DNA of 64,000 nucleotides. It comes from Archangium violaceum. GTDB lineage: Bacteria; Myxococcota; Myxococcia; Myxococcales; Myxococcaceae. Position numbers and translations under genes: made by a program. How positions within the stretch are numbered: position 1 is the stretch's first letter; every line of letters starts with the position of its first letter. The notes beneath the pieces were generated by a model. It saw only the letters and a program-made list of their open reading frames with translations. It had not been told where the DNA came from and made no database searches. The stretch spans positions 8,414,001 through 8,478,000 of the forward strand of contig NZ_CP069396.1 of the NCBI RefSeq assembly GCF_016887565.1. Direction: 5' to 3'. Positions 14,724 through 60,061 of this stretch are shown in pieces.

Positions 14724-14746
14724 GAACCGTCCCAGCCTCGAAAGGA

Positions 14747-14776
14747 GGAGTAGGCCGCGTGGGACCTACTCCTTTT
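14747..14776. terminator. Terminator between converging operons
   Basis: Stem GGAGTAGG (14747-14754) with CCTACTCC (14765-14772), 10-nt loop, then TTTT. It ends the ytf operon and overlaps the last codons of the converging BREX gene. Confidence 0.6.
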
Positions 14777-17700
14777 CGATCTTCAAGTAGTAGCCGTCCT
14801 CCCACTGCTTGGTGAGGTATTCGCGGAACTCGTCGACGACGGTGTCGATGTCCGACGCCTCCCAGAGGAACGCGCTCCGCGGCTCGAAGTCCCCGATGCG
14901 CACGCTCTTGGGACGACGGTCGCCAACGACGGCCGCCAGCAGCTTCGCCAGCGTCTTGAGCTCGGAGCCCGGCATCGTCAGCAGTGCGTCCGTCAGCTCT
15001 TCATCGCTCTGGGCCTCCAGGACCTCGGAGAGCGACTTCGGGCCATCCTCGACGGCTTGGAGGAGCGCATGGACCCTGGGTGAGCGCAGGAAGGATGCGA
15101 ACCCGCGAAGAGCGACCCTGGGAGTGTCGAGCAGCCGCGTCAACGCCTCCCGCCGGAGGTCACACTCCCTGGAGAGCCGCCGGAACGTCAACACCTCGTT
15201 GTCCACGACATCCAGCACGCTACCCGTGGCACGGGCGTCCTGCTCCGCGGCATCGCGATCCTCTGGGCGCCGACGAAGGGCACGCGGTGCTTCGCCGCTC
15301 TCCTGGCGCACCTTCTCCAGGATCCGGCCGGCCTCCTGGAACCCGCTGAACTCGCCAAGGACGCGCAACTCCGCGCTGCCCTCGATCTTCCTGCGCGCCT
15401 CCTCCACGTCCGCCTGGAGCGAGTCCAGCGACATCAGCGCATCGAGATAGGCGGGGACATAGACCTCCTCGAGCCGACGGAACCGGGGCTCGAGTCGCGT
15501 CTTGACCGTATCGGGATTCACGACGAGCTCGGCGACCTTCTTCAACTCGTCCAGAACGTCCGCCTGCGCGCGCTCGATCTGCTTCGGCACTCCCGACGTC
15601 GGGAGTTGCGCACGCGCCAGCCGTGCCGCGCGAAGGAGGATCAACCGCGTGGTCTCGAAGGAGTCGCGCAGCTCGACGAACCGGCGGCGATTCTCGCGGA
15701 ACGTCGTCAGGTGCTCCGACGTCAGGGCGGATGGCTCGCCTGCCCCGGAGACCACGAGGACGGCGCGGCACAGCGACTGGAAGACCTCTTCGAGCTCGAC
15801 TGGCGCGGAGCGGATCTCCTCCGCGAACTGAAGCCAGTAGATCAGCAGGTCATCAAAGGGGTTCTGCTGCTCGGGGCCCAGCGTGCCGAACAGATCGCGG
15901 AGCGCATCCATGACGTTGTTCACGTCGGCATCACGGACCCAGTGCTGATTCCGCAGCACCGCGAGCGCGTCGTCGGCGACCGCCTTGTCGTACTTCGGAC
16001 CCAGCGACCCATCGGACCGCTGCAGGAGGACCTCGAGGTACGGGCAGAACACCTGCCAGTCCGGCAGCGCCTTCGGCAGCTCGATGCGATTGAGATTCCG
16101 GAAGTGCTCCGGCTTGAAATCAATCTCACCAATCGTGGCGCGATCGATCCACCCACCCTTCTTGTCACTGATGCGAATCTGCCCCTGCTGGGCCAGACAC
16201 AGCAGGTAGATGTCCACCATGCGGCGCGTGAGGCCTGGCGACTCATTGCCGTCCTTGGCGTCGTACCCGGTGAACCAGTTGTAGACGGTCCGGATCTCCA
16301 GACCCGCGCCTCCCCGCTCCTCGACGCGCTTGCGGATCTCACCGAAGAAGACCGAGCCCGTTGGATCCAGTCGCCTCGGGTTGTCCGTGCGGACGAGCCC
16401 CAGCGGTCCCGCGAAGTTCTCGACGGCGCTCCACAGCTGATCGCCTTCGCTCACGGCCTGGCCGCGCTTCACGAGGCCGTTCACGAGCTTGACGGCTCCC
16501 AGCGCATCGAACTTGCGGTTGCCGAAATCGAGCACGCGCGATCGGTAACAGGTGTCCATGGCCTTCTGGGCCATCGACTCGATGGCGCCGCGAACACCTC
16601 TCACCATGGAGACATCCAGGGAGGTGCGTCCGGTCCGAGCCGCTCCGCGGACGTACATCGCCTGCAGGAGGGTATGCGCCCGGGTCGCCTCGCGTCGGAA
16701 CTCCCGCCGGCCGTCCTTCTCGAACGCGGAGTTCTTGTGCTCCTCCGCGACGAGGAGATGGGCCAGGACCGCCGCGAAGGTGGACTTCTCCTCGGGGCTC
16801 GGCTCCGCGGGAGCCCAGACCACCAGTCGAGGATCCACCTGCGCGTCCGCCTTGAGGAACTTCTCCACATCCTTGTCCGACATCGGACGTCGCGCGAGCA
16901 CGACGAGGAAGTCATCCTCGTTACCGTGGGTGTCGATCTCCGGTGGCCGGGCGTTCTGGCGCAGAAGGTCCGCGGCGGTGACGCGTCCAGAGCGCTCCTG
17001 CCCGTGCCAGGTCGTCTTCACCTGGAGCTGGCGCCAGTCCTCTTCCGGCACGAACTCGGAGAATGGTGATGGAGCATCAGGGTCCGCCGACACCATCAAG
17101 CGGTCCATGTACTGCCAGAAGAGCATCGGGTCGCTCTTCAGCCGGTCCGTGGCTTGAGACACGAGGTCGTCGTACTGACCCGTCTCCTTGGGAACGAACT
17201 CGTAACGCCCCTCGCGGAGCCGGACCTGATTGCGCAGCTTGCCGCGCATCTCCTCGAGGATCGTCTCGTAGTGCCCGAGTTGCGCCTCGAGCTCATCCTC
17301 GTTCGGCTTGAGATCACAGACGGTATCGAGGATCTGCTCCTTGGTGAGCCCCTGGACGCCCGCGAGGTGGTACAGGAACAACGTATTCAGGATGCGTTCC
17401 GCCCGGCTCCGGTTCTGGGGCCGTGCGAGCTGACCATCGGTGATGCGCTTGAGCGTGGCCTGTGCCGCGTCGAGCGCGGCGACCTCGCCGCGGAACTTGC
17501 TGCGGATGCTGATCGCCCCCGACGACGAGGTGGAGGGGGTCTCGTTGTACGACATCAGGTCGTCGAAGACCTTCCAGAGGGGGACGAGATCCTTGTCGCC
17601 CGTTTCGACGGCCCGCTTGAGGGCGCGGTGGAGGAAGCTGATGGTCGACCGCGTACCGGTCAGCCGAGTGGAAATCGCCCGGATGACCTGGATGGCGTCA

Positions 17701-18902
17701 GGGGGGAACGGGAAGGCCGACTCGAACTCTTCCTTCGGTGTGTCCTTCACCCAGGGAACGAGGTTCTTGTAGCCGCTGTAGTAGACGGCCACGGCGCCCG
17801 GGTCGCTGATGGTTCGCGTGCGCTGAACCACGATGTCCCGGAAGCGCTCGGCCTTGTGCTCGAGGAGCTCCTCACGGAGCCGATCGGGTCCGATGATCTT
17901 CTTCGGGTTCGTGTGCTCCGACTGGGCGGCGACGAGAGTCCAGATGGGGAGTGCTCGCGCCTTCGCCAGCGTGCTCGAGAGCGTGAGGAGACAATCCTCG
18001 TCGTCCGAGGTGAACTGGGAGCGGCGCAGGTATTCGGACATCTCGTCGATGGCAACGAAGACACCGTGGTACCCGGCCTCCAGGATGTCCTGCACCGCGC
18101 GCGCGAGCCGCTCGCCTCGCTCGGTGGGGATGCGCGGCATCAGGTTCTTGTGACGGTAGAACGCAGTGAGGACCCGCCCTGAGTCGCGCTGGCTCTGAGG
18201 GTCCTGAAGAGCCTTCACGAGCTCGTCGTACTCATACTGGGGCAGCCCGCGCATGAGCCGCTTGTCCGCGAGGAACACCCGCAGGTCGTCGCGGAACGCC
18301 TTCTGGTGTTCCTTCAAGAAGAGGCGGGCGAGATGCTCCTCGGGGTAGACGGCGAGCGGCTTCCCCTCGCGCAAGCCGAACGTGGCCTGCGCCTCCTCGA
18401 GCACGAAGTCCTCGAGCTTCTTCTCGTGCGAGCCACCGCACCCCTCGAGGGAGAACACGATGGGGAAGATCTTCTTGCCCTCGAGCTTCTTCCGCCACAG
18501 CGCGTCGAGACGTGCGCCCGGGCCCGCCCTGTTCTCCTCCTTCTCGCGCTGCTTCACCCGATCCCAGGCCGGAGAGCCACCAATGGCGAGAACGGCCGTG
18601 GCCGCCATCAGGTGCGACTTACCGACGCCGAACTCCGCCTGGACCCAGAAGCCCTGACCTTCACCCTCGGCGACCTTCTCGAGGATGCGGTTCAAGTAGG
18701 CACGAACGGGATCGAGGAAGAACTCGTCGAGCGTCTCCAGACGCACCTTGTTGTTCTTCCGCGATTCAGTGCGCTCGGCGTCGCTCTCTCCCGCCCAGAC
18801 GTGCTGGGTCAGCGAGTAGACGCTCTGGACGCGCTCGGGAACCTTGACGATGTCCTTGAGCGGAGGCCGGCTCGCGAAGCTGTTGAGTTTCATCTGGCTC
18901 AT
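14766..18902 (-). CDS. BREX PglY/BrxC-type ATPase (DUF6079-like)
   Basis: 1378 aa from ATG 18902, which overlaps the methylase stop in ATGA; the longer frame is only Arg-rich read-through. A P-loop FGVGKSHLM lies at residues 91-99 and a Walker B-like GVFVAIDEMSEYL further on; the rest is long and helical. Size, early P-loop and context match the BrxC/PglY (DUF499/DUF6079-like) ATPases, core components of BREX phage-exclusion systems that act with PglX methylases and PglZ. It is the last gene of the six-gene operon. I could not separate BrxC from PglY by eye; PglY is my preferred reading. Confidence 0.75.
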   Translation of the reverse strand: MSQMKLNSFASRPPLKDIVKVPERVQSVYSLTQHVWAGESDAERTESRKNNKVRLETLDEFFLDPVRAYLNRILEKVAEGEGQGFWVQAEFGVGKSHLMAATAVLAIGGSPAWDRVKQREKEENRAGPGARLDALWRKKLEGKKIFPIVFSLEGCGGSHEKKLEDFVLEEAQATFGLREGKPLAVYPEEHLARLFLKEHQKAFRDDLRVFLADKRLMRGLPQYEYDELVKALQDPQSQRDSGRVLTAFYRHKNLMPRIPTERGERLARAVQDILEAGYHGVFVAIDEMSEYLRRSQFTSDDEDCLLTLSSTLAKARALPIWTLVAAQSEHTNPKKIIGPDRLREELLEHKAERFRDIVVQRTRTISDPGAVAVYYSGYKNLVPWVKDTPKEEFESAFPFPPDAIQVIRAISTRLTGTRSTISFLHRALKRAVETGDKDLVPLWKVFDDLMSYNETPSTSSSGAISIRSKFRGEVAALDAAQATLKRITDGQLARPQNRSRAERILNTLFLYHLAGVQGLTKEQILDTVCDLKPNEDELEAQLGHYETILEEMRGKLRNQVRLREGRYEFVPKETGQYDDLVSQATDRLKSDPMLFWQYMDRLMVSADPDAPSPFSEFVPEEDWRQLQVKTTWHGQERSGRVTAADLLRQNARPPEIDTHGNEDDFLVVLARRPMSDKDVEKFLKADAQVDPRLVVWAPAEPSPEEKSTFAAVLAHLLVAEEHKNSAFEKDGRREFRREATRAHTLLQAMYVRGAARTGRTSLDVSMVRGVRGAIESMAQKAMDTCYRSRVLDFGNRKFDALGAVKLVNGLVKRGQAVSEGDQLWSAVENFAGPLGLVRTDNPRRLDPTGSVFFGEIRKRVEERGGAGLEIRTVYNWFTGYDAKDGNESPGLTRRMVDIYLLCLAQQGQIRISDKKGGWIDRATIGEIDFKPEHFRNLNRIELPKALPDWQVFCPYLEVLLQRSDGSLGPKYDKAVADDALAVLRNQHWVRDADVNNVMDALRDLFGTLGPEQQNPFDDLLIYWLQFAEEIRSAPVELEEVFQSLCRAVLVVSGAGEPSALTSEHLTTFRENRRRFVELRDSFETTRLILLRAARLARAQLPTSGVPKQIERAQADVLDELKKVAELVVNPDTVKTRLEPRFRRLEEVYVPAYLDALMSLDSLQADVEEARRKIEGSAELRVLGEFSGFQEAGRILEKVRQESGEAPRALRRRPEDRDAAEQDARATGSVLDVVDNEVLTFRRLSRECDLRREALTRLLDTPRVALRGFASFLRSPRVHALLQAVEDGPKSLSEVLEAQSDEELTDALLTMPGSELKTLAKLLAAVVGDRRPKSVRIGDFEPRSAFLWEASDIDTVVDEFREYLTKQWEDGYYLKIEKE

Positions 18903-21583
18903 TCGTCGGTCCCTTCGTCGTCGCCCGCCGCGTCGTCCTCTCCGGCGTCCTCCGCGACCTTGCCGCTGCGACGGCGACACTGCGCGTAGTAGTCCTCGGC
19001 ATCATACCGCTCGTCCTCGGAGAGCTGACCGAGCTGGTCGATGAGGCCACCCTTCTCGTAGATCGCCACGCCCTCCTCCACCAGACCGAAGGAGGCGCAG
19101 TGCTTGAGCCAGGCCACGAGCGTCTTCGCGTCCGGCAGGCGCTCCTTGGGCAGCTCCCCTTCCCCCTGGAGGAAGGCCGTGTACTGCCGGATGCGGCGGC
19201 CCAGGCCCGTCTGCCGTGCCTTCCGCAAGCTCTGCGCCTCGGCGGCGTCGGGAGTCCGGTGCAACCACTTGTCGCCATCCTTGAAGCGCACGAGGTACTC
19301 ATCGAGGAAGTCGACCAGGTTGCGGCGCGGCGTCTTTCCCGCCGCTCGCGCCTTCAACCACCGGGTCAGGTAGAAGAACAGGCAGTCGTAGAACTCGACG
19401 CCCTTGAGCCTGCCGCCGAGCTCGAACTTCCCCGCCTGCTTCTTGTCCTGGATGAGCGTGTCTTGAATCCAGCGCTGCACCTGGGTCTCATCGCAGTCGT
19501 CCCCCGCGAGGTCTGGCCTTCGCAGCACGACCTCCGCCGCGAGGCTCGAGCGGACCCCCATCATCCGGAGGCGCGCGAACTGGACGAGCGCTTCACCGGC
19601 CTTCTCCTCGTTCTTGATGTCGTTCTCGGAGAGGCTCTCGAACTGCTCTTTCAGGAACCAGCGTCCCGACTCGGACCGTACGGCGATCTCGGACAGAAGG
19701 TCGTCGAAGCGGTGCTCGGCCATCTGCCCGCGTGACAGCAGGCGCCTGGCCACGACGTCCCAGAGTCGGTCACGCGTCTGCCCTCCTCGTGTCCCGAGCT
19801 CGCCGAGCAATATCTCCCGGACACGATCAGAGACCGACGCCTCGCTGGCGGCCTGGGGCTGGTTCTCCCCTTCCGCACCAGCCTTGCGGCAGTTGAGCAC
19901 CAGATCCGACTTGACGACCACCTCGGCGGTATTCGCGTTCTGTGACTTGGATCGAGGCTCCAGTGTCGTGACGCTCTCGATGACGAAGCCGACATCCAGC
20001 AGGACATCCTGAAGGGCGGTCCACGTGGAAGGATCGGTGTCGTGATAGCAGACGGAGACACAGCGGCGCGGCTTCAGCACGCGATGGATCTCCGAGAACA
20101 CGACGCGTATCGCGGAGAGCCAGGCATCGAATGACTTGCCACGGCTCTCGTTCTCCACGATCTCATCGACGAGCCAGTCCGCCTTGACGCCGAGCATCGC
20201 CTCCCAGAAGAGGTTCAACTCCCCGTACTGCATCTTGAAGGTATAGGGCGGGTCCGTGAAGACGTAGTCCACCGAGGACGAAGGGACGCGGCGGAGCCCT
20301 TGCGCGGCGGGCTCGTTCGAGATGAGCGCGTGGCCGGGGGAACTCGGGGCCATCGCCGCCTTGTGCTCGAAGTGCCCCAATATCTGACTCTTCGCTTGTG
20401 ACAGGTACTTCGTCGGACGGGCCTCCATCCGGAGGGGAGCGATGTAGTAGGTCCCCTTGTTGACCCGCCCGACACCATCGGCGTTGCACCCCATCAGCAT
20501 GGAGCACTTGTGGACGATCCACGTCAGGAACAGACGCGGATCCACGTGGGCTTCGCGTGGCGCTTCGAGGAGCGAGGAGAGCGCGGCGCGATTCCTGGCC
20601 GTGAAGAAGTCCCCCACGGTCTCGATCCCGAAGTTCCACAGGGCGTCCCGCTGGTACCGAAGACCCTTGGGGAAGGCCATCTTGAAGGCGGGATGTGCCT
20701 TCCTGGCGTCCCGGGCCGCCGTGGCGACCCGCACGTCTTCGCGGACCGCGGCCAGGGCCTTGGGGTCGTCATCGAGCACCGTGCGAAGCGCGGCCTTCGG
20801 CCTGCACCCTCCGAGGCACGAGACCTTCGTGCCCACGGGAACCGCGGGAAACTTCTTGGAGCGGGTGGAGACCGCGAAGTCGCGGTTCGGCTTTCCACCG
20901 TTGTCCGCGAGGCACCCCGGGCAGACACGCGCCTTCTTCAGCGCGCCATCCGCCTGGGGGACGGGCTTCTCGGGACACGAATAGATGGGGACGATCTTCG
21001 CGCACTGCGGGCACTGGTACTGATCGCTCCAGAGCACGTATTCGATCAGTGCGTCACCACCGCACCGATGGCATCGGGTCTGGAACTCGGCGTCGGCACG
21101 ATCCCCGCGTCCTTCACCCAGCAGCAGGTCCAGAGACTGCTTCGCCGCACCCGGTGGCGGCAGGAGCGTGTAGTGATACGCCAGGAAGCAGGCCGCGGGA
21201 GACACGTCGAACAGGAGCGCATTGCGTCCAGAGACGACCGCCGCACATCCCGTCGTTCCCGACCCGCACATCGGGTCCAGGACGAGGTCCCCTTCTTGCG
21301 TGTAGTGCTTGATGTACTCGGCGATGGCCGAAGGGTCCTTCTTCGACCAGTAGGTGTGCATCGTGTACAGCTTGTTGTGCTTGTGGGTCTCGATGTCCTT
21401 TTCGAACGCGGAGGACGCGTACGGAGCGTCGCTCCCGGTCCGGTGGGCCTGGACGAAGGCCTCCACCTCGGGATGAGGGCCAACGGTCGAGGCCGAGGGG
21501 ACGGACGTCGATGCTCCGCTCTCGTCCGAGAGCAGGTGCATCTGAGAAGACTCGACCTTGCGAGTGCTGCTGCGCCTTGCCAT
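18899..21583 (-). CDS. BREX adenine-specific DNA methylase with zinc ribbons (COG1743/PglXI-like)
   Basis: 894 aa from ATG 21583. SAM-binding motif I is DPMCGSGT (103-110) and catalytic motif IV is DPPY (444-447), so motif I precedes motif IV. Between them are Cys pairs at CHRC (171), CPQC (191), CPGC (221) and CLGGC (256), consistent with inserted zinc ribbons. This plan matches the COG1743 'adenine-specific methylase with Zn ribbon' group, the PglXI type of BREX type 3, rather than the long PglX of type 1. It likely marks host DNA. The C-terminal ~300 aa after the catalytic core look helical and were not recognised. The next gene starts in ATGA. Confidence 0.82.
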   Translation of the reverse strand: MARRSSTRKVESSQMHLLSDESGASTSVPSASTVGPHPEVEAFVQAHRTGSDAPYASSAFEKDIETHKHNKLYTMHTYWSKKDPSAIAEYIKHYTQEGDLVLDPMCGSGTTGCAAVVSGRNALLFDVSPAACFLAYHYTLLPPPGAAKQSLDLLLGEGRGDRADAEFQTRCHRCGGDALIEYVLWSDQYQCPQCAKIVPIYSCPEKPVPQADGALKKARVCPGCLADNGGKPNRDFAVSTRSKKFPAVPVGTKVSCLGGCRPKAALRTVLDDDPKALAAVREDVRVATAARDARKAHPAFKMAFPKGLRYQRDALWNFGIETVGDFFTARNRAALSSLLEAPREAHVDPRLFLTWIVHKCSMLMGCNADGVGRVNKGTYYIAPLRMEARPTKYLSQAKSQILGHFEHKAAMAPSSPGHALISNEPAAQGLRRVPSSSVDYVFTDPPYTFKMQYGELNLFWEAMLGVKADWLVDEIVENESRGKSFDAWLSAIRVVFSEIHRVLKPRRCVSVCYHDTDPSTWTALQDVLLDVGFVIESVTTLEPRSKSQNANTAEVVVKSDLVLNCRKAGAEGENQPQAASEASVSDRVREILLGELGTRGGQTRDRLWDVVARRLLSRGQMAEHRFDDLLSEIAVRSESGRWFLKEQFESLSENDIKNEEKAGEALVQFARLRMMGVRSSLAAEVVLRRPDLAGDDCDETQVQRWIQDTLIQDKKQAGKFELGGRLKGVEFYDCLFFYLTRWLKARAAGKTPRRNLVDFLDEYLVRFKDGDKWLHRTPDAAEAQSLRKARQTGLGRRIRQYTAFLQGEGELPKERLPDAKTLVAWLKHCASFGLVEEGVAIYEKGGLIDQLGQLSEDERYDAEDYYAQCRRRSGKVAEDAGEDDAAGDDEGTDE

Positions 21584-21593
21584 GACAGTTTCC

Positions 21594-22178
21594 CTAATCC
21601 GCGAGCTCGAAGACCCAGCCCGAGTTCTTGAACACCAGCGCCTCGGGGAATTCCCTACGAGACTCGGCGTCCTCGTCGAAGATCCACAGCCGCCCATCCC
21701 GCATCCTGCCCGGGACGAGCAGGCAGACGCGCTTGCCGTTGATCGCCACCTGGCGAGCGAGCGAGATGTCGTTGCCGCCCAGGTCATAAGCGTACAGCAG
21801 TTCGAAGTCGGCCACGAACAAGCCCACGGTACCGGCGGCCTCGATCCGGCTCGTCATGAGGTCCCGAAAGGTGGAGGACAGGAGCCCCTTGAGCTGCTCA
21901 TCGCGACGCTGATCGGCGAGGCGCCCGGCCTGCGCATAGGTGCCACGAGCCTTCAGGTGGCCGAGGAGGTCGTGGCTCAGGGAGAGATACTCGACCGCGC
22001 CAAGCTTGTTGAAGCTGCCCTTGGCGACCTCCTTCTTGAGGCGCTCGGAGAAGCGTCGCAGCGACGCCTGGCTGCCGAACACGCAATACACATGGCGGTC
22101 GTGGGCTGGCGCGGCGAAGAGCGCGGCCAGCTCACGGAGCACATCGGACGGAGGTAGCTTGCGAACGTCGTTGGACAT
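21594..22178 (-). CDS. BrxB-like BREX protein
   Basis: 194 aa. No catalytic motif is seen. The predicted alternation of helices and strands, ending in VCLLVPGRMRDGRLWIF, resembles the C-terminal half of BrxB (DUF1788), in which a VPVVLFxPGxYDGxxLxLF-type strand pair occurs. BrxB is a small essential component of BREX type 1 of unknown biochemistry. It sits 6 nt after the BrxA-like gene and 10 nt before the methylase gene. The assignment comes from pattern and context rather than a firm motif; a BrxF-type component is the main alternative, although no P-loop is present. Confidence 0.5.
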   Translation of the reverse strand: MSNDVRKLPPSDVLRELAALFAAPAHDRHVYCVFGSQASLRRFSERLKKEVAKGSFNKLGAVEYLSLSHDLLGHLKARGTYAQAGRLADQRRDEQLKGLLSSTFRDLMTSRIEAAGTVGLFVADFELLYAYDLGGNDISLARQVAINGKRVCLLVPGRMRDGRLWIFDEDAESRREFPEALVFKNSGWVFELAD

Positions 22179-22184
22179 GTGGCG

Positions 22185-23102
22185 TCACTTGTCCTGGGGA
22201 AGCAATGGGAGTTGTACCGGCTCCGCCCTGCCCTTGCGCTTGCTCTTCCGAGGAGCGCCCGCCGCGGGCTTTCGCTTCTTCACGGGCTTCGGAGGCACGG
22301 GGTCTTTCCTGGCCTCGGGCTCGGGGGTTGGAGATGGCGGCGGGGACGAAGGTTCGCCGAAGAGCCTGCCAAGCCGTACCTCGGCGGAGTCGGCGAGCGT
22401 GAACTGGTGGTACTGGTCGAGCTCGGAGATCTTGCTCACGTGGCCGGCGCGCCGCGCGGCCTCCAGCATTCCGGGAAGGCACGGGCGCGGCCAGAGCATC
22501 GCGCGGAGGAGGGGCTGTCCGGCGAGCTGCTCGACACGAACCATCGCGCGCTCGGGATAGAGGCGAGCGAGGACGTAGAAGAACGCCTCGGGGGAAGGCT
22601 CGGACCAGACCGGGATGTACACGGCGGGTTTCGGTGACGAGATCTTCCGGCACCTTCGAAAGGTCGCCACGGCGGCCGTGGCCACCCGGTCCGAGTCGCG
22701 GCCCCCAAGGCGTCGCTCGAGGAAGGCCAGGAGCGAGTCCCGGGAGCTGCCTTCCGGCGGCAGCTCCGCCAGCCACAGAGAGGCGATCTCTTGAAGGACG
22801 GGGCTGGCTTGCAGCATCTCGAAGTAGAGGATCTCGCGCCCTGTGCGGGAGTCGCCGTAGCGCGCGAGCGCCCGCGCGAGGGCCAGGTTCATCTGCCCGT
22901 CCTGGGAGAAGCGCTGGGAGATGTACTCGGCGAAGCGCTGTCGCGTCTGGACGCTCGACTGCGGGAGCTGCGCGATCAGGTATGCGCGGAAGGCGCTGGA
23001 CGTCGGGTGCTCGACCGCCGCGGGGAGATACCGGAGGCTCTCCTCGACCAGCGGGTTGTTGAAGTACGTCCGCCGCGCGCGTTGGGAGAGCGCCCTGCTC
23101 AA
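22185..23102 (-). CDS. BrxA-like BREX protein with basic C-terminal tail
   Basis: 305 aa from a TTG start overlapping the brxL stop in TTGA; a perfect AAGGAGG lies six bases upstream inside brxL, which fixes this start. The first ~190 aa are helical and recall BrxA (DUF1819, NusB-like fold), with its series of short helices around RFAEYISQRF and ILYFEMLQASPVL. The last ~70 aa are a Pro/Lys/Arg-rich tail ending VQLPLLPQDK that could bind nucleic acid. BrxA binds DNA in characterised systems. Family membership is inferred; an unrelated BREX accessory protein remains possible. Confidence 0.5.
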   Translation of the reverse strand: MSRALSQRARRTYFNNPLVEESLRYLPAAVEHPTSSAFRAYLIAQLPQSSVQTRQRFAEYISQRFSQDGQMNLALARALARYGDSRTGREILYFEMLQASPVLQEIASLWLAELPPEGSSRDSLLAFLERRLGGRDSDRVATAAVATFRRCRKISSPKPAVYIPVWSEPSPEAFFYVLARLYPERAMVRVEQLAGQPLLRAMLWPRPCLPGMLEAARRAGHVSKISELDQYHQFTLADSAEVRLGRLFGEPSSPPPSPTPEPEARKDPVPPKPVKKRKPAAGAPRKSKRKGRAEPVQLPLLPQDK

Positions 23103-25105
23103 ACGAGAACCTCCTTCAGCGCTTCTTCCGCCTTCTCGACGAACACCAACTGCACGCCGCGGCAGACGTCGGCGGGGAGCTCGCGCACCTCCCGCTCGTT
23201 CTCCTTGGGGAGGATCACGACGCGGGCGCCCGCATCCCGGGCCGCCGCGATCTTGGGTGCCACTCCGCCGATCCCCAGGATGTTCCCGTGGAGGGTGATC
23301 TCACCGGTCATGGCGACGTCGTTTCGCACCTTGCGATGGGTCAGTGCGGACACGATTCCCACGGCGAACGCGAGGCCAGCGGAGGGACCCTCCTTGGCGA
23401 TCGCTCCCTGGAGCGCGAGCACCGAGAGGTCGTAGCCCCCCTTGAGCTCGCTCACGATCTGAAGGGACTTGCGCCGGTGGGACACGTACTCGTACGCGGC
23501 CTTCACGGACTCCTTCATGGACTTGCCCATCGACCCGAGGCGGTGAAGCGCACCATTTCCCTTCTGCGCGACGACCTCGATCACCTGCAGGCTGCCGGCA
23601 CCGTCTCCCCCCACGGCCAGCCCCACGACGACTCCGACCTGCGGCTCGCTGGGAATGCGGAGCGACCTGCGCCGGGCGCGCTCGGGCGGCTCCACCAGCG
23701 TGCGCTTTCCCGCGATCTCGAACTCCATCGTGTACTTGGGGTACTCGCCCGGAGCGAGCACCGAGAGCTGGTCCTTGACGCGCTGACGGGCCTCGACGGC
23801 GAAGGCCACGTACTCGGCCAGCTCCTCATCGGTGGCGCGCCCGTCCGGGTGCAGCAGCTTCATGAGTCCGCGCACGACCTTGTGGATGGCCTCGACGTCC
23901 CGTCCCTTCGCATTGCGAAGCACATAGCGGGTACTGGGATCGGTCGGGAGCAGCGAGCCACGAAGCAGATGGAGGAGCTCGGCGAAGTAGTCCAGGGTGA
24001 ACCCGTAGCCCTCCGCGAAGCTCTTGTCCGTCAGCTTCGGCATCTCCCAGCCCGGCAGGAACCCGTGAATGCGCTCGAACAGCGCCGTGTCGACCAGCTC
24101 CTCCGGCAGGGGCTCGAAGAGATGGTCGTACTTCTCGTGGGGCTGGTTGCCGAGAACATCGAGGTTGCCGATGAAGACGATCGACGCCTCGCCCTTCACC
24201 TGGAAGCGGCCGAGGCTGAAGTTGCCGTACTCCATGTAGTCCTTGAAGATGGAGACGGTGGCGGTCGGATCCTTGAACTCCGTGTTGGCGATTTCGTCGA
24301 AGACGAGCGTGTCGAACTGAGCGACGAGCCCCGGCTTGCCGGTGCCGCCGTGGACGAACAGCGCCGCTGGCGTCGCTCGTCCTCCGGAGAGCATGTACGA
24401 GTAGTACGAGAGGTTCTTGTACCCGTAGCTCTTGCCGGTCTCCCTCGGGCCCAGCTCGATCAGATGGACCATCCGCTCCGCCATCGGCACGAGGCGCAGG
24501 ATGGTGAGCAGCTGCTGTCGGAACGACAGCACCTCGGGGTTGAGGCCAATGGTGTTCACGAGCAGGGCGAGCCACTCGTCCCGCGTGAACTGGGAGCGCT
24601 TCTCGAGGAACTCGCTGATGTCGATCCGGCCGTGCTGGAACGGGGTGAAGTCGGAGAGCAGCAGGGGGGTGATCTTGCCCTTCCAGACCTGCGCCTCGTC
24701 GTACGTCAGCTCGGCGATTCCCCACATTCCGCCCATGAGGCGCGGGTACTTGTTGACCAGTCCCTCATCGACATGGACGTGCCGCTCGTTCAACGCGGCG
24801 AGCTGCGCCCAGTACTTGTCCTCGCTCGTCTCCAGTCGAACCTCGACCCGGGCGATCAGATCCAGGCTGCGCTTCTGCTTCAGCTCGTGGAGGATCCGGG
24901 GAGCATCGGCCGGTGAGGCGTAGTTCTCGGCGAGCTTGCGGCGAACACGACCGAGCTCGGCCTCGAAGTCATCCCCAGGGCAGAACTGGTTGATCAGGTA
25001 CTCGAGAACATACCGGGGGAACTCCTTCAGGTCGGCGAGGCGCGTCCGTCGCTTCTCGACGACCAGCCGGCCGAACACCTCGGGTATCTTCGTCTCCCGC
25101 CCCAT
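23099..25105 (-). CDS. brxL: BrxL Lon-like AAA+ protein
   Basis: 668 aa. N-terminal BrxL-specific region, AAA+ module with Walker A GPRETGKSY (219-227) and Walker B LVFDEIAN (about 267-274), and a C-terminal Lon-type domain with EGPSAG (Ser575) and a Lys at 618 in the order of the Ser-Lys dyad. BrxL proteins are DNA-binding AAA+ hexamers required in BREX types 1 and 4. ATG at 25105 forms TGATG with the pglZ stop; a GTG at 25108 gives a GTGA overlap. Both imply coupling to pglZ. Expected length for the family. Confidence 0.9.
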   Translation of the reverse strand: MGRETKIPEVFGRLVVEKRRTRLADLKEFPRYVLEYLINQFCPGDDFEAELGRVRRKLAENYASPADAPRILHELKQKRSLDLIARVEVRLETSEDKYWAQLAALNERHVHVDEGLVNKYPRLMGGMWGIAELTYDEAQVWKGKITPLLLSDFTPFQHGRIDISEFLEKRSQFTRDEWLALLVNTIGLNPEVLSFRQQLLTILRLVPMAERMVHLIELGPRETGKSYGYKNLSYYSYMLSGGRATPAALFVHGGTGKPGLVAQFDTLVFDEIANTEFKDPTATVSIFKDYMEYGNFSLGRFQVKGEASIVFIGNLDVLGNQPHEKYDHLFEPLPEELVDTALFERIHGFLPGWEMPKLTDKSFAEGYGFTLDYFAELLHLLRGSLLPTDPSTRYVLRNAKGRDVEAIHKVVRGLMKLLHPDGRATDEELAEYVAFAVEARQRVKDQLSVLAPGEYPKYTMEFEIAGKRTLVEPPERARRRSLRIPSEPQVGVVVGLAVGGDGAGSLQVIEVVAQKGNGALHRLGSMGKSMKESVKAAYEYVSHRRKSLQIVSELKGGYDLSVLALQGAIAKEGPSAGLAFAVGIVSALTHRKVRNDVAMTGEITLHGNILGIGGVAPKIAAARDAGARVVILPKENEREVRELPADVCRGVQLVFVEKAEEALKEVLV

Positions 25106-27738
25106 CACGTATCTCCAAAGAGCCTGGCGAGCTTCGCCCTGGCCACATCGACCTTGGCCCTGGCGGGCGCGACATCGACTTCGATGCTCGTCTCACCGAC
25201 CTTGTCACCCGCGAGGAGCGCCGTGAGTTGAAGCGTGTGCTTGCCTGGCGCACCCGGCACATACCGGAGCTTCACGGTCTGGGGCGTCGTCGTGACCCCC
25301 GTGACGACGGTGGATTCCACCGCGGGTTGAGCCGCGGCAAGCGACACGGGGGACGACAGGATCCCATCGGCCGAGACACTGAGCTCGATGACCGACGCGA
25401 CTCCGACCTCGAACGCCCCCGCCGCGTGGGCGACGAGGCGTACCTGCGCCTTGGCCGTGCGGTGTTTCAGCCTGATGAGCGGTACCACGACCTCGAACAG
25501 GCTGATGCCACCGTGCCGGTAATTCGCGCTCGGGCGGAACCTGCGGGACGCATCCGAGCCATCGCGCAGCGCGTGGCCTGGACGCGGGAAGACGAACCAG
25601 CCGGGGCTGCCGTGCCGGAGGTCACGCGCCGGAATCTGGAAGACCCTGGCCGCGTCATGTCCCTCGACACGCGACGTGACGTACGCGGAGCGATAGCCCA
25701 CATCGTCCGCGTCCCGCAGATTCACCGGAGCTCCGCGTTGCTGCAGGATATGACCGTGGTCCGCCGTGATGAACACCATCGCCTCGGGGCCGATGTCCGC
25801 GAGCAACGCGCGGATCTCCCGAATCAGATGGCGCTGCCCCTCTTGCAGCGTGTGGGGATCCCAATCGACCTCGTGAGACAGGGCGTCGGGAAAGTCGAAG
25901 ACCGCCGCGTGGACGGACTGGTCGCGAGTCCGCACGCCAAAGCGCATTCCGGGGCGGCGGCGAGGAAGTTCCTCGAAGGTGATGGCGGACCCATGCACGG
26001 TGGAGAGCAGCTGTGCGAAGAGCTCCGACTCACTCCCCGACGACGGCGTCGACGCGGGAGGCAAGCCCGCGAAGAAGGAGCGCCGCGACACGTGCGTCTC
26101 GGAGGGCAGTAGCGCGAAGCCGAACGACTCCTCGACCTCGTAGTCCCGTTCGAGCGCGGGGCGCAGCAGCTCACGCCAGATGTCCACCCGCATGCTGTCG
26201 ACGACGAGGACGACCGCCTTGCGCATCCCCCCGCCGCTCGTTCGACGCCGAGGAGCGATGAACTTCTCGTAGAAGAGGTCCGTCGTGAGCACCTCGGATG
26301 GAACGATCTCCGCGTACCGCGCCTCGAGCAGCTTGCCGAACGCGAGGTCGAGCTCGTCACGCAGTCGCCCGGCGAGCGCCATCGTGTCACGACACGCACG
26401 CTGCTCCTTCGACCAACGCGCCTCGAAGCCCGTCACGCTCCGCCATTGGTGCCGCGCGGGACCTTCGATGAAGTAGATCAGGCTCTCGAGACGGCCGACG
26501 ATCCGATCGACCCGATGAAATCCCCGGTCGATGAAGATCTGGATCAACTGCCTCGCGGTCTGGTTCTTCAGCGGAGACAGCCGGAGTCCCTCGATCACCC
26601 CCTTGGTGGCATGGATGATCGTCTCGAGCTCCTTCTTGAGGTGCAGGAACTCCGGCACGAGCTGATCGAGCCGGAAGTCCTCGCCGCCGGATTCGTGCAC
26701 GGATTCTGGCGCCTGCACCTCGAACGGGACCAGTGAGCGCAGCTTCCGGGAGAGGCGCTCGCGCTGGGCAAACGTCCTGGCCTTCTCCGGCGAGCCGAGG
26801 TCCAAGGTGTCGCGGATGTGGCGCAGGAACTCATCGCCGCAGGCCTGCTCGAAACGCGGAACCTCGCTCTCGGAGAACCAGGAGGGGGCGTCGACGCTCG
26901 GAAGCACGTCGCAGTCCCGGTATGACCCGAGCGCGGGGGAGAGGAAGGGCAGCTGCTTCCCGGGCTCCTCGAAGTGCTGGCGCAGCAGGAGCAGTGAGAC
27001 CAGCGCCAGGCGGGCCGTCTCCGCGTGCTCACCGAAGAGGTCTCCGAGCGGACGCGGCAGCGAGCGGAGATGCCGCCGGACGATCTCCTGCTCGGCCGGG
27101 TTGAAGAGTTCCTCGACGGCCTGCCATCCGTCCTGCGAATGGAACGCGAGCTCCAGGGCAATCACCGGGCTCGTGATGTCGAACAGGTCCACACCGAGCA
27201 CGGCGCTCGCACCGACGACGACGAGATCGCTGTCGGTGAGGGCACGCCCCATGCGGCGGAACGTCTCGTACGCCTTGACGAGCGCGGCCGGCCGCTCCCG
27301 GGCGAGCTTCTCATACGGGTAGATGTTGACCTGAACGGGCCAGTCCTCGAAGCCCGTCATCGACATGAGGAACTCACGGATGTTCGGCCGGAAGAACGCA
27401 TCGGCCGCGACGCACGGTTTCCAGTCGGGAGCGGGAAGTGGCCTCAGGTCCGAGGGCTTCGCGTCCTTCGGCAACAGGTGCGGATCACGGATCGTATAGG
27501 ACTGATCCACGATGACGGCCTTGGCCGCGCGTGCGTCTCCCCCCAGGCCGTCCAGGGCCTCGCGGAGACGGAAGGCGTTGTCGACGCACACCACCCGGCG
27601 GCCCGTCGGCTCGAGCACCTTGCGCAATTCGCCGAGCTCGGACTCCTCGAGCATCTGGTACGGATCCTCGACCCACACCAGCTTGTGGTGTCGGGCGAGC
27701 GCTTCGGTACGATCCCTGGCCCACTGTGACGGACGCAT
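25105..27738 (-). CDS. pglZ: PglZ alkaline-phosphatase-superfamily BREX protein
   Basis: 877 aa from ATG 27738; the frame upstream is read-through across the tRNA-repeat region. The PglZ domain begins near residue 507 with VVLVVDSMRVDIW (metal ligand Asp514), continues to LLPSETHVSRRSFF (about 543-556) and ends with FITADHGHI (Asp660, His661, His663), the metal site of the alkaline phosphatase superfamily. The N-terminal 500 aa are helical. PglZ is the signature protein of all BREX systems. It is first in the operon, about 50 bp from a tRNA-terminator duplicate, so the BREX promoter must be very short or lie within it. Confidence 0.92.
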   Translation of the reverse strand: MRPSQWARDRTEALARHHKLVWVEDPYQMLEESELGELRKVLEPTGRRVVCVDNAFRLREALDGLGGDARAAKAVIVDQSYTIRDPHLLPKDAKPSDLRPLPAPDWKPCVAADAFFRPNIREFLMSMTGFEDWPVQVNIYPYEKLARERPAALVKAYETFRRMGRALTDSDLVVVGASAVLGVDLFDITSPVIALELAFHSQDGWQAVEELFNPAEQEIVRRHLRSLPRPLGDLFGEHAETARLALVSLLLLRQHFEEPGKQLPFLSPALGSYRDCDVLPSVDAPSWFSESEVPRFEQACGDEFLRHIRDTLDLGSPEKARTFAQRERLSRKLRSLVPFEVQAPESVHESGGEDFRLDQLVPEFLHLKKELETIIHATKGVIEGLRLSPLKNQTARQLIQIFIDRGFHRVDRIVGRLESLIYFIEGPARHQWRSVTGFEARWSKEQRACRDTMALAGRLRDELDLAFGKLLEARYAEIVPSEVLTTDLFYEKFIAPRRRTSGGGMRKAVVLVVDSMRVDIWRELLRPALERDYEVEESFGFALLPSETHVSRRSFFAGLPPASTPSSGSESELFAQLLSTVHGSAITFEELPRRRPGMRFGVRTRDQSVHAAVFDFPDALSHEVDWDPHTLQEGQRHLIREIRALLADIGPEAMVFITADHGHILQQRGAPVNLRDADDVGYRSAYVTSRVEGHDAARVFQIPARDLRHGSPGWFVFPRPGHALRDGSDASRRFRPSANYRHGGISLFEVVVPLIRLKHRTAKAQVRLVAHAAGAFEVGVASVIELSVSADGILSSPVSLAAAQPAVESTVVTGVTTTPQTVKLRYVPGAPGKHTLQLTALLAGDKVGETSIEVDVAPARAKVDVARAKLARLFGDT

Positions 27739-27788
27739 CTTCCACTTCTCTCTGTCACGCGGGGCAGCGTCGCGCCAAGGCGCAAACG

Positions 27789-27822
27789 AAAAAAGCCCCC
27801 GAGTCACTTGGGGTCGGAGGCT
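27789..27822 (-). terminator. Duplicate of the tRNA-Leu terminator
   Basis: On the minus strand a 9-bp stem (AGCCTCCGA with TCGGGGGCT) is followed by six T. It copies the terminator at 59938-59970 with a few changes in the loop and upper stem. It would stop read-through from the right into the BREX operon. Confidence 0.7.
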
Positions 27823-27850
27823 CCTTCGGAGTCCAGGGCGGGATTCGACC
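27790..27850. repeat. Direct repeat: tRNA-Leu 3' end plus terminator (candidate attL)
   Basis: About 60 bp matches 59938-59999 in the same orientation: a 22-base identical block beginning AAAAAGCCCCCGAG, then TCGGAGGCTC, TTCGGAGT and CCAGGGCGGGATTCGA. It ends inside the T-arm of the tRNA and has no 5' acceptor partner, so it is not a tRNA gene. A copied tRNA 3' end at a distance is the usual mark of a tRNA-targeting integrative element. Confidence 0.75.
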
Positions 27851-27852
27851 CC

Positions 27853-27894
27853 GGTAAGGGGGGATGGAAACCTCGAGCAGGACGCGCCCTTACC
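27853..27894. repeat. Inverted repeat beside the att-like copy
   Basis: Perfect 8-bp arms GGTAAGGG (27853-27860) and CCCTTACC (27887-27894) with a 26-bp centre, abutting the tRNA fragment. It could be a recombinase or excisionase arm site; no further support. Confidence 0.35.
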
Positions 27895-28121
27895 CACCAT
27901 CCCCTTGATTTTACTCGGGTTCGTCATTCCGTCCCATCCCACTCCGACCCACCTGGTTCCGCCTGATTCCGCGCCGGAGGGACACATACGGGGCACATGA
28001 GCGTGCCCTACGGCACGGAGTCACGACGAGGTCCAGAGACAAGGAGACAGGCAGGCGCTCATAGGGGCCGGCGCCTCGAGCGGCGCGCAGCATCACCCGC
28101 CCGAGCTACCGCCGCTCCGTG

Positions 28122-29393
28122 CTACGCCACGGGCTTCCTTCTGAGACGCGACAAGTGCTCCTCGCCGTTCTCCGCGAACCGCCGCGCCAGTTCGGCCTGG
28201 CCCTCCGCGCCGTGCTCCAGCAGGTACTCCAGCTCCGAGGGCAGCAACGCCTTGACGGTGACGAGCTTCACCTCCCCATACGGTGTGGAGAAGTGCCTCG
28301 GCAGCGTGCGCGACTCCACGCCCAGTAGCACAGCCACCCTGCCATCCTCGGTGACGAGGGACCTGGGCAGGCCCTTGCCGGACACCTCCATGGAGAAGAG
28401 GCCCGCCTTCACCCCCTCGCGCACCTTCTCGTGCTCGGCGACTTCATCCGCCACGCGGTTCAGCAGCAGCAGGGGCCAGCCCTTCGAAATGTCCTTCACG
28501 GACGCGTCCACCTCCAGGGCGAGCTCCAGGCCAAAGCCCACGGAGGGCTCCAGACTCTCGATGAACGGGTCCGAGAGCCCGTGCGTCACGAGCAGGGTGC
28601 GCCCTGCCTCGCGACGGATGACGCGCCAGAGCTGCCGGTGACCCGGCCACGAATCGCTCATGGCGATGGGCATGAAGACCTCCTCGTCCAGCGTGCCCAG
28701 GGTGCGCCAGGCCGCCTCACGAGCGGTGGCCGCCGTCTCCAGCAGCTCGCGGCTTTTCCGGTCCCTCGCTCGCTCCTCCGCGCTGATGGTGCTGGGGCCG
28801 GTGACCTCTTTGAACTTCGGCCCCGTCGCGCCCAGTTCTTCAAGGGCCACCTTGATGGCCTCGGAGACGACCATGGCTACCCAGCCCCAAGTGCGGAACA
28901 CCTGGGCATCGCCCACCTTCGAGGGATCGATGCGCATGCCGATCACGGAGCGGTACTCTCCGAGTTGGTCCGGCAAGCCATGCTCCGGTGTCACGTAGCG
29001 CACCTCGTCGGAAGCCTCGTCGTCGATGCACTTCACGACACGCGTGATGTTGAGAAGGAAGTATGGCTCGCTCTGTCCCTCCACCTCGACCGGAATGAGC
29101 TGCACATCGCCGGAAGCCAGCTCGGCGAACACGGCCGCCACCCGGGCATGAACTACCGGGATTGACGTACCCGCCAGGGAAAAGTCGAGCGCCTTGCCAG
29201 GGGAATAAAGGGGAATCCGGATTCGTCCCTCGACCATGACGGGCTCGCCCCGTCTAAACAGCCAGGTTCCGAGCGCCTGCCCCTGCTGATCCACGGGCTC
29301 ACTTAGCTCCCACCGGCCCGGGATATGAATGTCATCCAAAAGCCTGAAATATTGTCCTGCCATCATATAGAGATTCCCTAGCGGGGTTTTCAT
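28122..29393 (-). CDS. Two-domain immunity protein (Imm11-like + SuFu-like)
   Basis: 423 aa. The N-terminal half (about 10-190) resembles the Imm11/MXAN_0049-type immunity domain common in myxobacteria. The C-terminal half (about 225-415), with MPIAMSDSWPGHRQLWRVIR and LLGVESRTLPRHF, resembles a SuFu-type immunity domain. Both families neutralise polymorphic toxins. The ATG overlaps the toxin stop in ATGA, so toxin and protector are translated together. Residues near the C terminus recur in a gene remnant at 38746-38940. Domain names rest on pattern recognition; the pairing with the toxin is strongly supported by the overlap. Confidence 0.7.
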   Translation of the reverse strand: MKTPLGNLYMMAGQYFRLLDDIHIPGRWELSEPVDQQGQALGTWLFRRGEPVMVEGRIRIPLYSPGKALDFSLAGTSIPVVHARVAAVFAELASGDVQLIPVEVEGQSEPYFLLNITRVVKCIDDEASDEVRYVTPEHGLPDQLGEYRSVIGMRIDPSKVGDAQVFRTWGWVAMVVSEAIKVALEELGATGPKFKEVTGPSTISAEERARDRKSRELLETAATAREAAWRTLGTLDEEVFMPIAMSDSWPGHRQLWRVIRREAGRTLLVTHGLSDPFIESLEPSVGFGLELALEVDASVKDISKGWPLLLLNRVADEVAEHEKVREGVKAGLFSMEVSGKGLPRSLVTEDGRVAVLLGVESRTLPRHFSTPYGEVKLVTVKALLPSELEYLLEHGAEGQAELARRFAENGEEHLSRLRRKPVA

Positions 29394-30808
29394 TCGGTCA
29401 GTAGCCTATTGAGCCGGCTTCCCTTCCTGGTTATCTCCGCAGCCAGCTCCCCAAGCACTTTCCGCAATGCACGCGCGCACTCCTGCTGAGTGACACTGTC
29501 TTTCGTCGCCATGTCCAAGTCGTCAAAGACGGCTTGATGGTACTCCTCAGGATGAGGTCCATAGTGCCCGGGGAGTTGGACCTTGTTGGCCGGGTCCTCC
29601 ATCGACATGCCCGCCTTGTCGAAGATTGGCTTGAACCTCTTCGTCCAGGGCCCGCCGCGCAACGTGGACTTCTCGTTCTCGACGGTGGCGATGTGGTGCA
29701 CCTCCGGCTTCTTCTTCGGCGGGCCCACGCGAGCCGGAGAGCCCCTCGCGGCCATGCTCACGACGTTGGCGGGCAGGACGACACTGAAGGTGCCCTCGGC
29801 CACGGCGACCTTCACCTTGTCCGCCTCCTGCGCGGCCGTGAGCACGTCTCGGATGCCGGCATGGGACTCGAGCGCACCGGCGGCTTTCGCGAAGCCCGGC
29901 AGCTTCGGGGCCTTGGACACCAGCGCCGCCGTCTCCCCCACCGCCGCCGTTCCCAACAGGAGGAGAATCCGCACGCTGTTGGGCCCGATGACCTTGCCGA
30001 AGCGGTCTCCCGCCTCGCGCAGCTCCGCGAACGTGCTGGCCTCCGCCGCCTCCTCCCAGAGCTTGAACCAGGCCCGCACCAGGTCGAAGAGCTCCCAGCC
30101 CAGGTAGCCCCACATGAGCAGGGCCAGTGCGCCGGCCACGCATTTAGAAACGGGCTCGGGTGCCGCAACCAGGGCGAGGTATCCAATGATGGTGAGGCTC
30201 AGCGTCGTCCACAGCTGCGTCGTGGAGAACATGCCGCGCAGCTCCGCGTCCCGGGACTCCAGCGCCACATTCACGGAGAGCGCCAGGGCCAGGTCGCGCT
30301 TGTCCTCACCATCCAGGCCCGGCCCGTCCTTGAACAACCCGAGGCAGTCGCCCGGCGTGCCTTGCCGCTCGCAGAAGCTCCCGTAGGAGCGCGCCAAGGG
30401 CGTGCGCCACTCCTCGCTCGTGAGCGAGGCGGAGGCCAGCGCCAGCTTCCGGTGGAGGTAGAGCGGAAAATGGGAGTCGGCCACCCGCAGCGGCATGTTC
30501 AGCACCAGGGTGGCCAGGGCGTCGTTGAGCTCGAAATCGCTCACCTGCACCGCCCCGAATCGGGTGGGCAGGAAGAGGTGAACCCGCTCGTCCGCGGCCT
30601 CGCCCTCCTCCGCCTCGGCCGTGGAAGGCCGGGCGTCTTCGTGGAAACGGGGTGTCAGGGGCCGGTAATGGAAACCCACCAGCATCCCGCCCCGAGAAAC
30701 GCCCGTGGCGCATGCGGCGTTGAGGAAGAGGACGATGAGGACCCAAGCACCCAACCAGGGGCGCTGCCGCGTGCCTGCCAGGCGCGAACCAACGGGACGG
30801 GTGGACAC
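29390..30808 (-). CDS. SitA-like lipoprotein toxin with AHH nuclease domain
   Basis: 472 aa from GTG 30808, with GGAGGTGCGGC directly ahead. A signal-like helix ends NAAC (Cys33; Asn at -3 is unusual for a lipobox). A conserved scaffold with several hydrophobic segments (about 190-310) is followed by a C-terminal domain with the AHH-type HNH nuclease pattern: His-His at 371-372 (EVHHIAT), then GHYGPHPEEYH at 414-424. Lipoprotein toxins with exchangeable C-terminal domains are the SitA class that myxobacteria pass by outer-membrane exchange. The immunity gene follows in ATGA. A paralogue with another toxin domain is at 39289-40665. Confidence 0.75.
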   Translation of the reverse strand: MSTRPVGSRLAGTRQRPWLGAWVLIVLFLNAACATGVSRGGMLVGFHYRPLTPRFHEDARPSTAEAEEGEAADERVHLFLPTRFGAVQVSDFELNDALATLVLNMPLRVADSHFPLYLHRKLALASASLTSEEWRTPLARSYGSFCERQGTPGDCLGLFKDGPGLDGEDKRDLALALSVNVALESRDAELRGMFSTTQLWTTLSLTIIGYLALVAAPEPVSKCVAGALALLMWGYLGWELFDLVRAWFKLWEEAAEASTFAELREAGDRFGKVIGPNSVRILLLLGTAAVGETAALVSKAPKLPGFAKAAGALESHAGIRDVLTAAQEADKVKVAVAEGTFSVVLPANVVSMAARGSPARVGPPKKKPEVHHIATVENEKSTLRGGPWTKRFKPIFDKAGMSMEDPANKVQLPGHYGPHPEEYHQAVFDDLDMATKDSVTQQECARALRKVLGELAAEITRKGSRLNRLLTE

Positions 30809-30995
30809 GCCGCACCTCCGATAGGCGGGGACTGAACCCAGGATGACAGCGGGGTCCGACAGGCACGTCAATCCATCAGGAGGGCGGAGGGATGGGCACC
30901 GACGGCTCCACCCTCACTCGCGGCCTCGTGCCGGGAGTCACCACTGCCGGGAGTTGCTCGTCGCGGACCCCTGCCCTTTGCGGTAGACGGACACC

Positions 30996-32548: not shown

Positions 32549-32558
32549 GAGGGCACCT

Positions 32559-32573
32559 CCTGAACCATTCAGG
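32559..32573. promoter_or_regulatory. Palindrome overlapping the kinase Shine-Dalgarno
   Basis: CCTGAA-N3-TTCAGG overlaps the AGGAGG ribosome site of the gene starting at 32548. The second cassette has the same palindrome at the same place (42864-42878). It is a candidate operator or RNA hairpin hiding the ribosome site. Confidence 0.5.
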
Positions 32574-32743
32574 TTCTCGGCGTCAGGACCGGGTTGCTTT
32601 CGGGCAACACGGGAGACCCTCGAAAGAAAGCATCAGCCAACCAGACAGGTCAACCCCCAGACTTGACCTTTTGGAGCGGGAGAGCCGCAGCAACCCAACG
32701 CCGTCCATCCACCTGGAGGATGCGAACGTCGTAAACGAGCCGC

Positions 32744-33670: not shown

Positions 33671-33791
33671 GGAGCGGGAATCTCCAAAGTGAAGAAGAAG
33701 AAACTGGAGAAGTAGGCCCCTAACACACCTTCCTGCCCGGTAGTCCGCGTTCCGGTCCGGGCCTCCAGCCCACCAAGCTTCAGGATGGGCG

Positions 33792-41669: not shown

Positions 41670-41671
41670 GG

Positions 41672-42853: not shown

Positions 42854-42863
42854 GAAGATACCT

Positions 42864-42878
42864 CCTGAACCTTTCAGG
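42864..42878. promoter_or_regulatory. Palindrome overlapping kinase Shine-Dalgarno (copy B)
   Basis: CCTGAA-N3-TTCAGG, the same arms and position relative to the GTG start as at 32559-32573. Sequence just upstream of it is less conserved between the copies than the palindrome. Confidence 0.5.
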
Positions 42879-59970: not shown

Positions 59971-59999
59971 CTTTCGGAGTGCCCAGGGCGGGATTCGAA
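59938..59999. repeat. Direct repeat: tRNA-Leu 3' end plus terminator (candidate attR)
   Basis: The intact partner of the copy at 27790-27850. It comprises the T-arm and 3' acceptor strand of tRNA-Leu and its terminator. The two copies flank about 32 kb. Confidence 0.75.
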
Positions 60000-60061
60000 C
60001 CCGCACACCTTTCGGCGCCACCCCCTCAAGATGGTGTGTCTACCAGTTCCACCACCTGGGC
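59980..60061 (-). tRNA. tRNA-Leu (anticodon GAG)
   Basis: 82 nt. Acceptor arms GCCCAGG / CCTGGGC pair perfectly, with discriminator A and no encoded CCA. The long variable arm (class II) and D-arm GTGGAACTGGTAGACAC fit tRNA-Leu. The anticodon stem CCATC/GGTGG encloses loop TTGAGGG, giving GAG. T-arm GCGGGTTCGAATCCCGC. It lies after secG, as leuU does in E. coli. Its 3' part is duplicated at 27.8 kb. Confidence 0.95.

Follow-up and report, generated by a model that had tools for sequence, protein, structure and literature searches.

The 64-kb stretch of Archangium violaceum DNA analyzed here, called the window below, comes from a 13.2-Mb genome assembled as a single contig and carries six genes that probably represent a rare, undescribed BREX subtype matching no named type. 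The six open reading frames (ORFs) lie on the minus strand, running from 27738 to 14766 in the order pglZ-brxL-brxA-brxB-methylase-ATPase (Table 1). The first-pass annotation had proposed this gene set at 14766 to 27738, and all six ORFs were confirmed there in that order. The pglZ/brxL, brxL/brxA, and methylase/ATPase pairs overlap by 4 bases, and the other neighbors are separated by 6 bases (brxA/brxB) and 10 bases (brxB/methylase). Because neighbors overlap by 4 bases or sit at most 10 bases apart, the six genes very probably form one operon. A promoter scan at the operon found no promoter. Two other genomes carry these genes in the same order, so the arrangement is not a chance one. Judged from the protein families present, the locus is likely a complete BREX-family antiphage operon constituting a subtype of its own.

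Table 1. Features of the operon and its surroundings, in window coordinates
Feature	Position	Strand	Remarks
pglZ	25105..27738	-	877 aa
brxL	23099..25108	-	669 aa; GTG at 25108, ATG at 25105
brxA-like	22185..23102	-	305 aa; basic C-terminal tail, probably disordered
brxB/brxF-like	21594..22178	-	194 aa; degenerate P-loop (iSTAND) protein
PglXI/BrxXI-family DNA methylase	18899..21583	-	894 aa
BrxC-like AAA+ ATPase	14766..18902	-	1378 aa
BrxL Ser576, Lon catalytic serine in GPSAG	23381..23383	-	Aligned with Lon PKDGPSAG
BrxL Lys619, Lon catalytic lysine in GGVAPK	23252..23254	-	Lon alignment
Methylase insert, motif I to motif IV	20258..21247	-	330 residues; four CxxC/CxxxC pairs
Strain-variable insertion, operon plus leader only	14724..28072	.	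Homology breakpoints versus relatives
Degenerate tRNA-Leu(gag) 3' end plus terminator, att-like repeat, 5' of pglZ	27790..27853	-	Sequence match
Intact tRNA-Leu(gag)	59979..60061		About 32 kb from the degenerate copy, direct orientation

Genomic setting, relatives, and distribution

Homology to a close relative (genome G005) is continuous at 92% until 14723, where a sugar ABC permease gene ends, and homology to other members of the genus resumes at 28073 to 28109, adjoining an immunity gene. Since the homology of the relatives stops at both flanks, the operon occupies a 13.3-kb insertion that varies between strains, and GC content did not distinguish this insertion from its surroundings. The degenerate tRNA-Leu repeat, which lies in the operon leader, is 91% identical over 66 columns to the end of the intact tRNA-Leu at 59938 to 60003. 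In another relative (genome G004), the toxin-immunity pair sits directly at that tRNA-Leu. The tRNA-like repeat by the insertion and the toxin-immunity pair at the tRNA together fit an interpretation of tRNA-Leu as an integration hotspot, and the degenerate repeat, in direct orientation with the intact tRNA, resembles an att site for islands arrayed in tandem at a single such hotspot. The region at 28122 to 30871 encodes an Imm11/SUFU-type immunity protein and an AHH-nuclease protein with a SitA5 polymorphic-toxin domain. Farther along, the segments at 31391 to 34104 and 41657 to 44346 both match one stretch of genome G005 and are therefore tandem paralogous copies.

When the methylase alignment was used to scan 84,980 species genomes, two full relatives were found. 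One, L015, comes from a Myxococcota metagenome-assembled genome (MAG) titled Deltaproteobacteria and holds all six genes at 47 to 78% identity per protein; the other, L016, comes from a Verrucomicrobiia MAG and holds all six at 31 to 62% identity. Three full members were thus found, two of them from MAGs, and their gene order is identical. The L015 operon additionally contains an inserted AAA_21 and DUF4276 pair, and the L016 operon has a GmrSD_N/HNH gene inside it and AAA_13 and HATPase genes downstream. A 2026 survey of BREX systems reports that additional defense-type genes are frequent in BREX loci (PMC12839542). A cousin with five genes, found on the Halorarius halobius plasmid NZ_CP101162.1, is ordered methylase-brxA-brxB-ATPase-pglZ, and its ATPase matched at 22% identity (E = 8e-32). 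Like the operon in the window, it joins a methylase with four CxxC pairs to a BrxA family protein, a BrxB-like protein, an ATPase, and PglZ; it differs in being archaeal, in lacking BrxL, and in its gene order. In trees that were small, had long branches, and left out type-2 and type-4 rows, the window, L015, and L016 proteins were monophyletic with starred support for PglZ, BrxL, the methylase, and the ATPase, and the Halorarius ATPase grouped with the three bacterial ATPases (90/96).

The system is rare, although its true frequency is uncertain because the searches were pattern based or sampled. Searches of about 190 other Myxococcota and of 387 further genomes of the phylum of L016 turned up no additional member. 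The 396 genomes searched from the phylum of L018 also gave no member, an empty answer that shows little since that search had no positive control. Neither viral contigs nor phages yielded a member, and an exact-peptide scan of genome contigs with the ATPase gave no match. Plasmid searches recovered only the Halorarius cousin with the ATPase, ordinary BREX-1 or BREX-3 PglZ proteins with PglZ, and type-1 or unrelated proteins with BrxL. This rarity would suit a set of DNA-maintenance genes on a chromosomal island, built from BREX-like parts and having no immune role. Against that explanation, which we regard as quite improbable, six BREX families are coupled in one operon at a strain-variable site, and the relatives carry other defense-type genes inside the operon.

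Several other candidates were rejected as relatives. The similar methylase seen on Pseudarthrobacter plasmids belongs to a different system with two methylases; on one conjugative plasmid (L004:14882-22666), two adjacent DNA methylases, the first of them PglXI-like, accompany an AAA ATPase and hypothetical proteins, and these genes constitute a different, unnamed modification system. The acidobacterial candidate L018 is only a methylase fragment at a contig end, next to a transposase-like gene; L019 is not a BREX locus. A paper on an Antarctic cyanobacterium names PglXI and BrxL only among its search terms; the genes it reports are those of type 1 and not the six-gene set.

Components and their BREX counterparts

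Each protein was compared by hhalign, using an alignment of the new proteins against one of each BREX component with the other components serving as controls, and in every case the best match among the tested families was the BREX counterpart. The PglZ domain, of the alkaline-phosphatase superfamily, spans approximately residues 507 to 668, is flanked by N- and C-terminal extensions, and scored above the cutoff of the Pfam PglZ model (41.6 bits). Its putative metal-site residues, D514, T548, D618, H622, D660, H661, and H742, are invariant in an alignment with type-3 and Halorarius PglZ. hhalign scored 98% to both type-1 and type-3 PglZ alignments. The NCBIfam PglZ models, whose cutoffs range from 200 to 400, gave only 53 bits for type 2 (cutoff, 200), 51 for type 3 (cutoff, 250), 27 for type 1B, and 21 for type 1A, with no match to the type-4 and type-5 models; a Leisingera type-3 PglZ run as a control in the same test scored 681 bits. 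In the PglZ phylogeny, which had been proposed as a check on the first reading, the new proteins formed a clade of their own on the type-3 side.

The ATPase has a Walker A motif at residues 91 to 97 (FGVGKSH) and a Walker B motif at residues 282 to 287 (FVAIDE). It matched no Pfam family, DUF499 included, and NCBIfam gave a weak DnaA-like match; the PADLOC BrxC model matched with an E value of 3e-7. By hhalign it aligned over more than 1,000 columns with both type-1 BrxC (97.6%, 1080 columns) and type-3 BrxC (89.5%), versus 4.2% for DUF499. By profile comparison, then, it is classed as a diverged relative of BrxC.

In the methylase, motif I (DPMCGSGTTG, at residue 103) lies ahead of motif IV (TDPPY, at residue 443) and a cysteine-rich insert separates the two, in agreement with the earlier description of a Zn-ribbon methylase with motif I before DPPY. 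In the window protein and in those of L015, L016, and Halorarius, this insert has four CxxC-type pairs; three type-3 methylases have two. The putative target-recognition domain therefore probably holds two zinc ribbons rather than one. The PADLOC PglXI model scored 233 bits, and hhalign gave 100% to type-3 BrxXI (score, 490), 99% to BR-type methylases (score, 148), and 8.8% to type-1 PglX. These scores place the protein, on sequence grounds, with the type-3-like BrxXI/PglXI methylases and not with PglX proper, the assignment that would have undercut the original reading. The L015 methylase (L015:9881-12721) has DPAY in place of DPPY at motif IV, although its operon is complete in other respects, so methylation cannot be taken for granted in all members.

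The ATPase and methylase scores also bear on whether the locus could be a DUF499-centered, BREX-related (BR/Hma) system. The methylase families are related, and BR type 3 is described in the survey as having PglZ and an iSTAND protein (PMC12839542). However, the ATPase resembles BrxC and not DUF499, the methylase is far nearer to type-3 BrxXI than to the tested BR-type methylases, and the operon is without a Swi2/Snf2 helicase, all of which leaves this the least probable of the explanations considered.

The small P-loop protein had no Pfam family and no match to the BrxF model. hhalign gave 75% to BrxF, 61% to BrxB, and less than 1% to every other family. The best structural match of its AlphaFold model (pLDDT 75) was BrxB of the Acinetobacter BREX complex 9zll (Z = 12.4, 173 residues aligned); the first unrelated protein, an ATPase, gave a Z of 10.6. 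The profile scores and the model together indicate a BrxB-like iSTAND component. The BrxA assignment is the weakest of the six, made on weak profile scores and synteny, because the AlphaFold model of this protein (pLDDT 50) was too poor for a fold match. No HMM matched it, those of Pfam and NCBIfam included; hhalign gave 80% to a Halorarius protein annotated as "BrxA family" and 24% to type-1 BrxA, the best of the remaining families, with all others below 2%.

Short motifs resembling those that bind sliding clamps occur in two of the proteins: QLPLL within the basic tail at the BrxA C terminus (22185 to 22260) and QMHLL at the methylase N terminus (21535 to 21583). Similar motifs are QLRLD, found twice in L015, and MDQGSLFEE at the N terminus of an Enterococcus faecium type-3 methylase (L008). 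They are not conserved in L016 or Halorarius.

BrxL has all three expected domains above the Pfam cutoffs, BrxL_N, an MCM-like AAA+ domain (BrxL_ATPase), and a full Lon_C (168 bits), and is also above the cutoff of NCBIfam TIGR02688. It matched the solved BrxL structure 8emc with a phmmer E value of 4e-102 and type-1 BrxL at 100% by hhalign. In an unrooted tree with long branches, the new BrxL proteins were split from 20 type-1-like BrxL proteins (100/100, starred); they thus appear to lie outside the type-1 branch rather than nested in it. The Lon Ser-Lys dyad is intact in all three members. BrxL has been described as lacking this dyad, both in the structural work and in the survey (PMC10164562, PMC12839542). 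Both residues were found in none of the eight type-1 BrxL proteins compared that have a Lon domain, and in 0 of 10 other myxobacterial BrxL proteins, leaving aside one discussed below.

Place among the BREX types

The genes of BREX type 1 are BrxA, BrxB, BrxC, PglX, PglZ, and BrxL. The operon in the window fills the same six roles, with a BrxL that has N-terminal, AAA+, and Lon domains, a BrxB fold, and full-length similarity to BrxC. Unlike type 1, it has a methylase other than PglX, a BrxL that falls outside the type-1 branch and bears the Ser-Lys dyad, and a PglZ below all the type-1 cutoffs; pglZ and brxL come first here and last in type 1. BREX type 3 has BrxF, BrxC, PglXI/BrxXI, BrxHII, PglZ, and BrxA. 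Here the likenesses are the methylase family with a target-recognition domain in its insert, a BrxF-like small P-loop protein, a PglZ that falls on the type-3 side in the tree, a BrxC-like ATPase, and a BrxA-like protein. The differences are that BrxL replaces BrxHII, PglZ is below the cutoff, the BrxF model does not match, the methylase insert has two predicted zinc ribbons in place of the one four-cysteine zinc finger of BrxXI, and the order is pglZ-brxL-brxA-brxB-mtase-atpase. BrxHII is absent from the window, L015, and L016 operons, and Swi2/Snf2-like helicases occur only elsewhere in these genomes. BREX type 4 has PAPS reductase/DUF4007, BrxC, PglZ, and BrxL. The operon shares with it the joint presence of BrxL and PglZ; however, PglZ does not match the type-4 model, and the operon has no phosphorothioation genes, a Pfam search of the six genes finding no PAPS reductase/DUF4007. 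According to the survey, the type-4 BrxL is without a C-terminal Lon domain, types 2 and 3 have no BrxL at all, and the BrxXI methylase with its insert is a type-3 component (PMC12839542).

Neither the published classification nor the model sets assign the locus to a type. No system with these six genes is described in the part of the survey available; a small share of unassigned hits was discarded by its authors, so they may have come across loci of this kind (PMC12839542). The first-pass annotation had called the locus a BREX variant outside the six classical types with pglZ first, and this held up: PglZ is below all named cutoffs, the order is as described, and neither profile searches nor trees put the set inside a named subtype. 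Its further description as a hybrid of types 1/4 and 3 stands for the sharing of gene families but not for a recent mixing of parts. With BrxL outside type 1 and bearing an intact dyad, and PglZ and the ATPase on their own branches, the locus appears to be a lineage in its own right, with gene families in common with types 1, 3, and 4.

The main competitor to a separate lineage is a type-3 BREX system in which BrxHII was swapped for a type-1 BrxL, working by the type-3 mechanism with BrxL acting as a DNA motor only. In its favor, the closest relatives of the methylase and the BrxB-like protein, BrxXI and BrxF, are type-3 components, PglZ is on the type-3 side, and BrxHII is missing from the operon. 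However, PglZ and the ATPase fall outside type 3 in separate clades, with PglZ at about one-fifth of the type-3 cutoff that the control easily exceeded, BrxL is outside the type-1 branch with its dyad present, and the gene order is both different and conserved. We consider this competitor unlikely.

A proposed mode of defense

Protein families and gene context make a BREX-type defense with methylation a reading in which we have good confidence. The most likely function would be methylation-based defense with PglZ as a nuclease, possibly with BrxL as a protease. Judged by protein family and intact residues, a type-1-like division of labor is the best reading. In type 1, most BREX proteins are needed for host methylation. 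By analogy, the type-3-like methylase, presumably an N6-adenine enzyme, would mark host DNA at a motif read by the zinc-ribbon insert, and the BrxA-like and BrxB-like proteins, the BrxC-like ATPase, and PglZ would form a modifying and scanning complex. On unmodified DNA, this complex would license the PglZ nuclease and a BrxL AAA+ ring assembling on the DNA. Type-1 PglZ has been shown experimentally to be a metal-dependent nuclease (PMC12205998), and experiments on type-1 BrxL revealed an AAA+ ring that needs its ATPase activity for restriction (PMC10164562).

A protease role for BrxL is proposed because the Lon Ser-Lys dyad is kept. BrxL might act as a DNA-loaded, ATP-dependent protease, for example against phage replication proteins, and not only in the helicase-like manner of type 1. 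An intact dyad is by itself no proof of protease activity; on balance, we lean slightly toward BrxL being able to cut protein and are more doubtful, short of an even judgment, that such a protease would be the defense effector. It is conceivable, and we put it forward only tentatively, that the locus is a seventh, previously undescribed BREX type whose BrxL works as a DNA-loaded, ATP-dependent protease and whose restriction proceeds by proteolysis together with PglZ, perhaps preserving the state from before type-1 BrxL lost its protease. In the question of how BREX arrests phage, BrxL is one of the chief puzzles: it takes its name from Lon, yet the solved structure shows no protease site (PMC10164562). 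A dyad-bearing BrxL within BREX permits a direct test, by one point mutation, of past or present proteolysis in restriction.

BrxL homologs also occur in other settings. On a Thermus oshimai plasmid (L101:5547-13506), a BrxL without a Lon domain lies beside vWA, tubulin-like, and hypothetical genes, with no BREX genes annotated nearby. One myxobacterial BrxL, L106 in genome G042, has both Lon dyad residues intact, and no BREX genes were detected around it. From its sequence, a BrxL with a possible protease site occurs outside BREX in myxobacteria.
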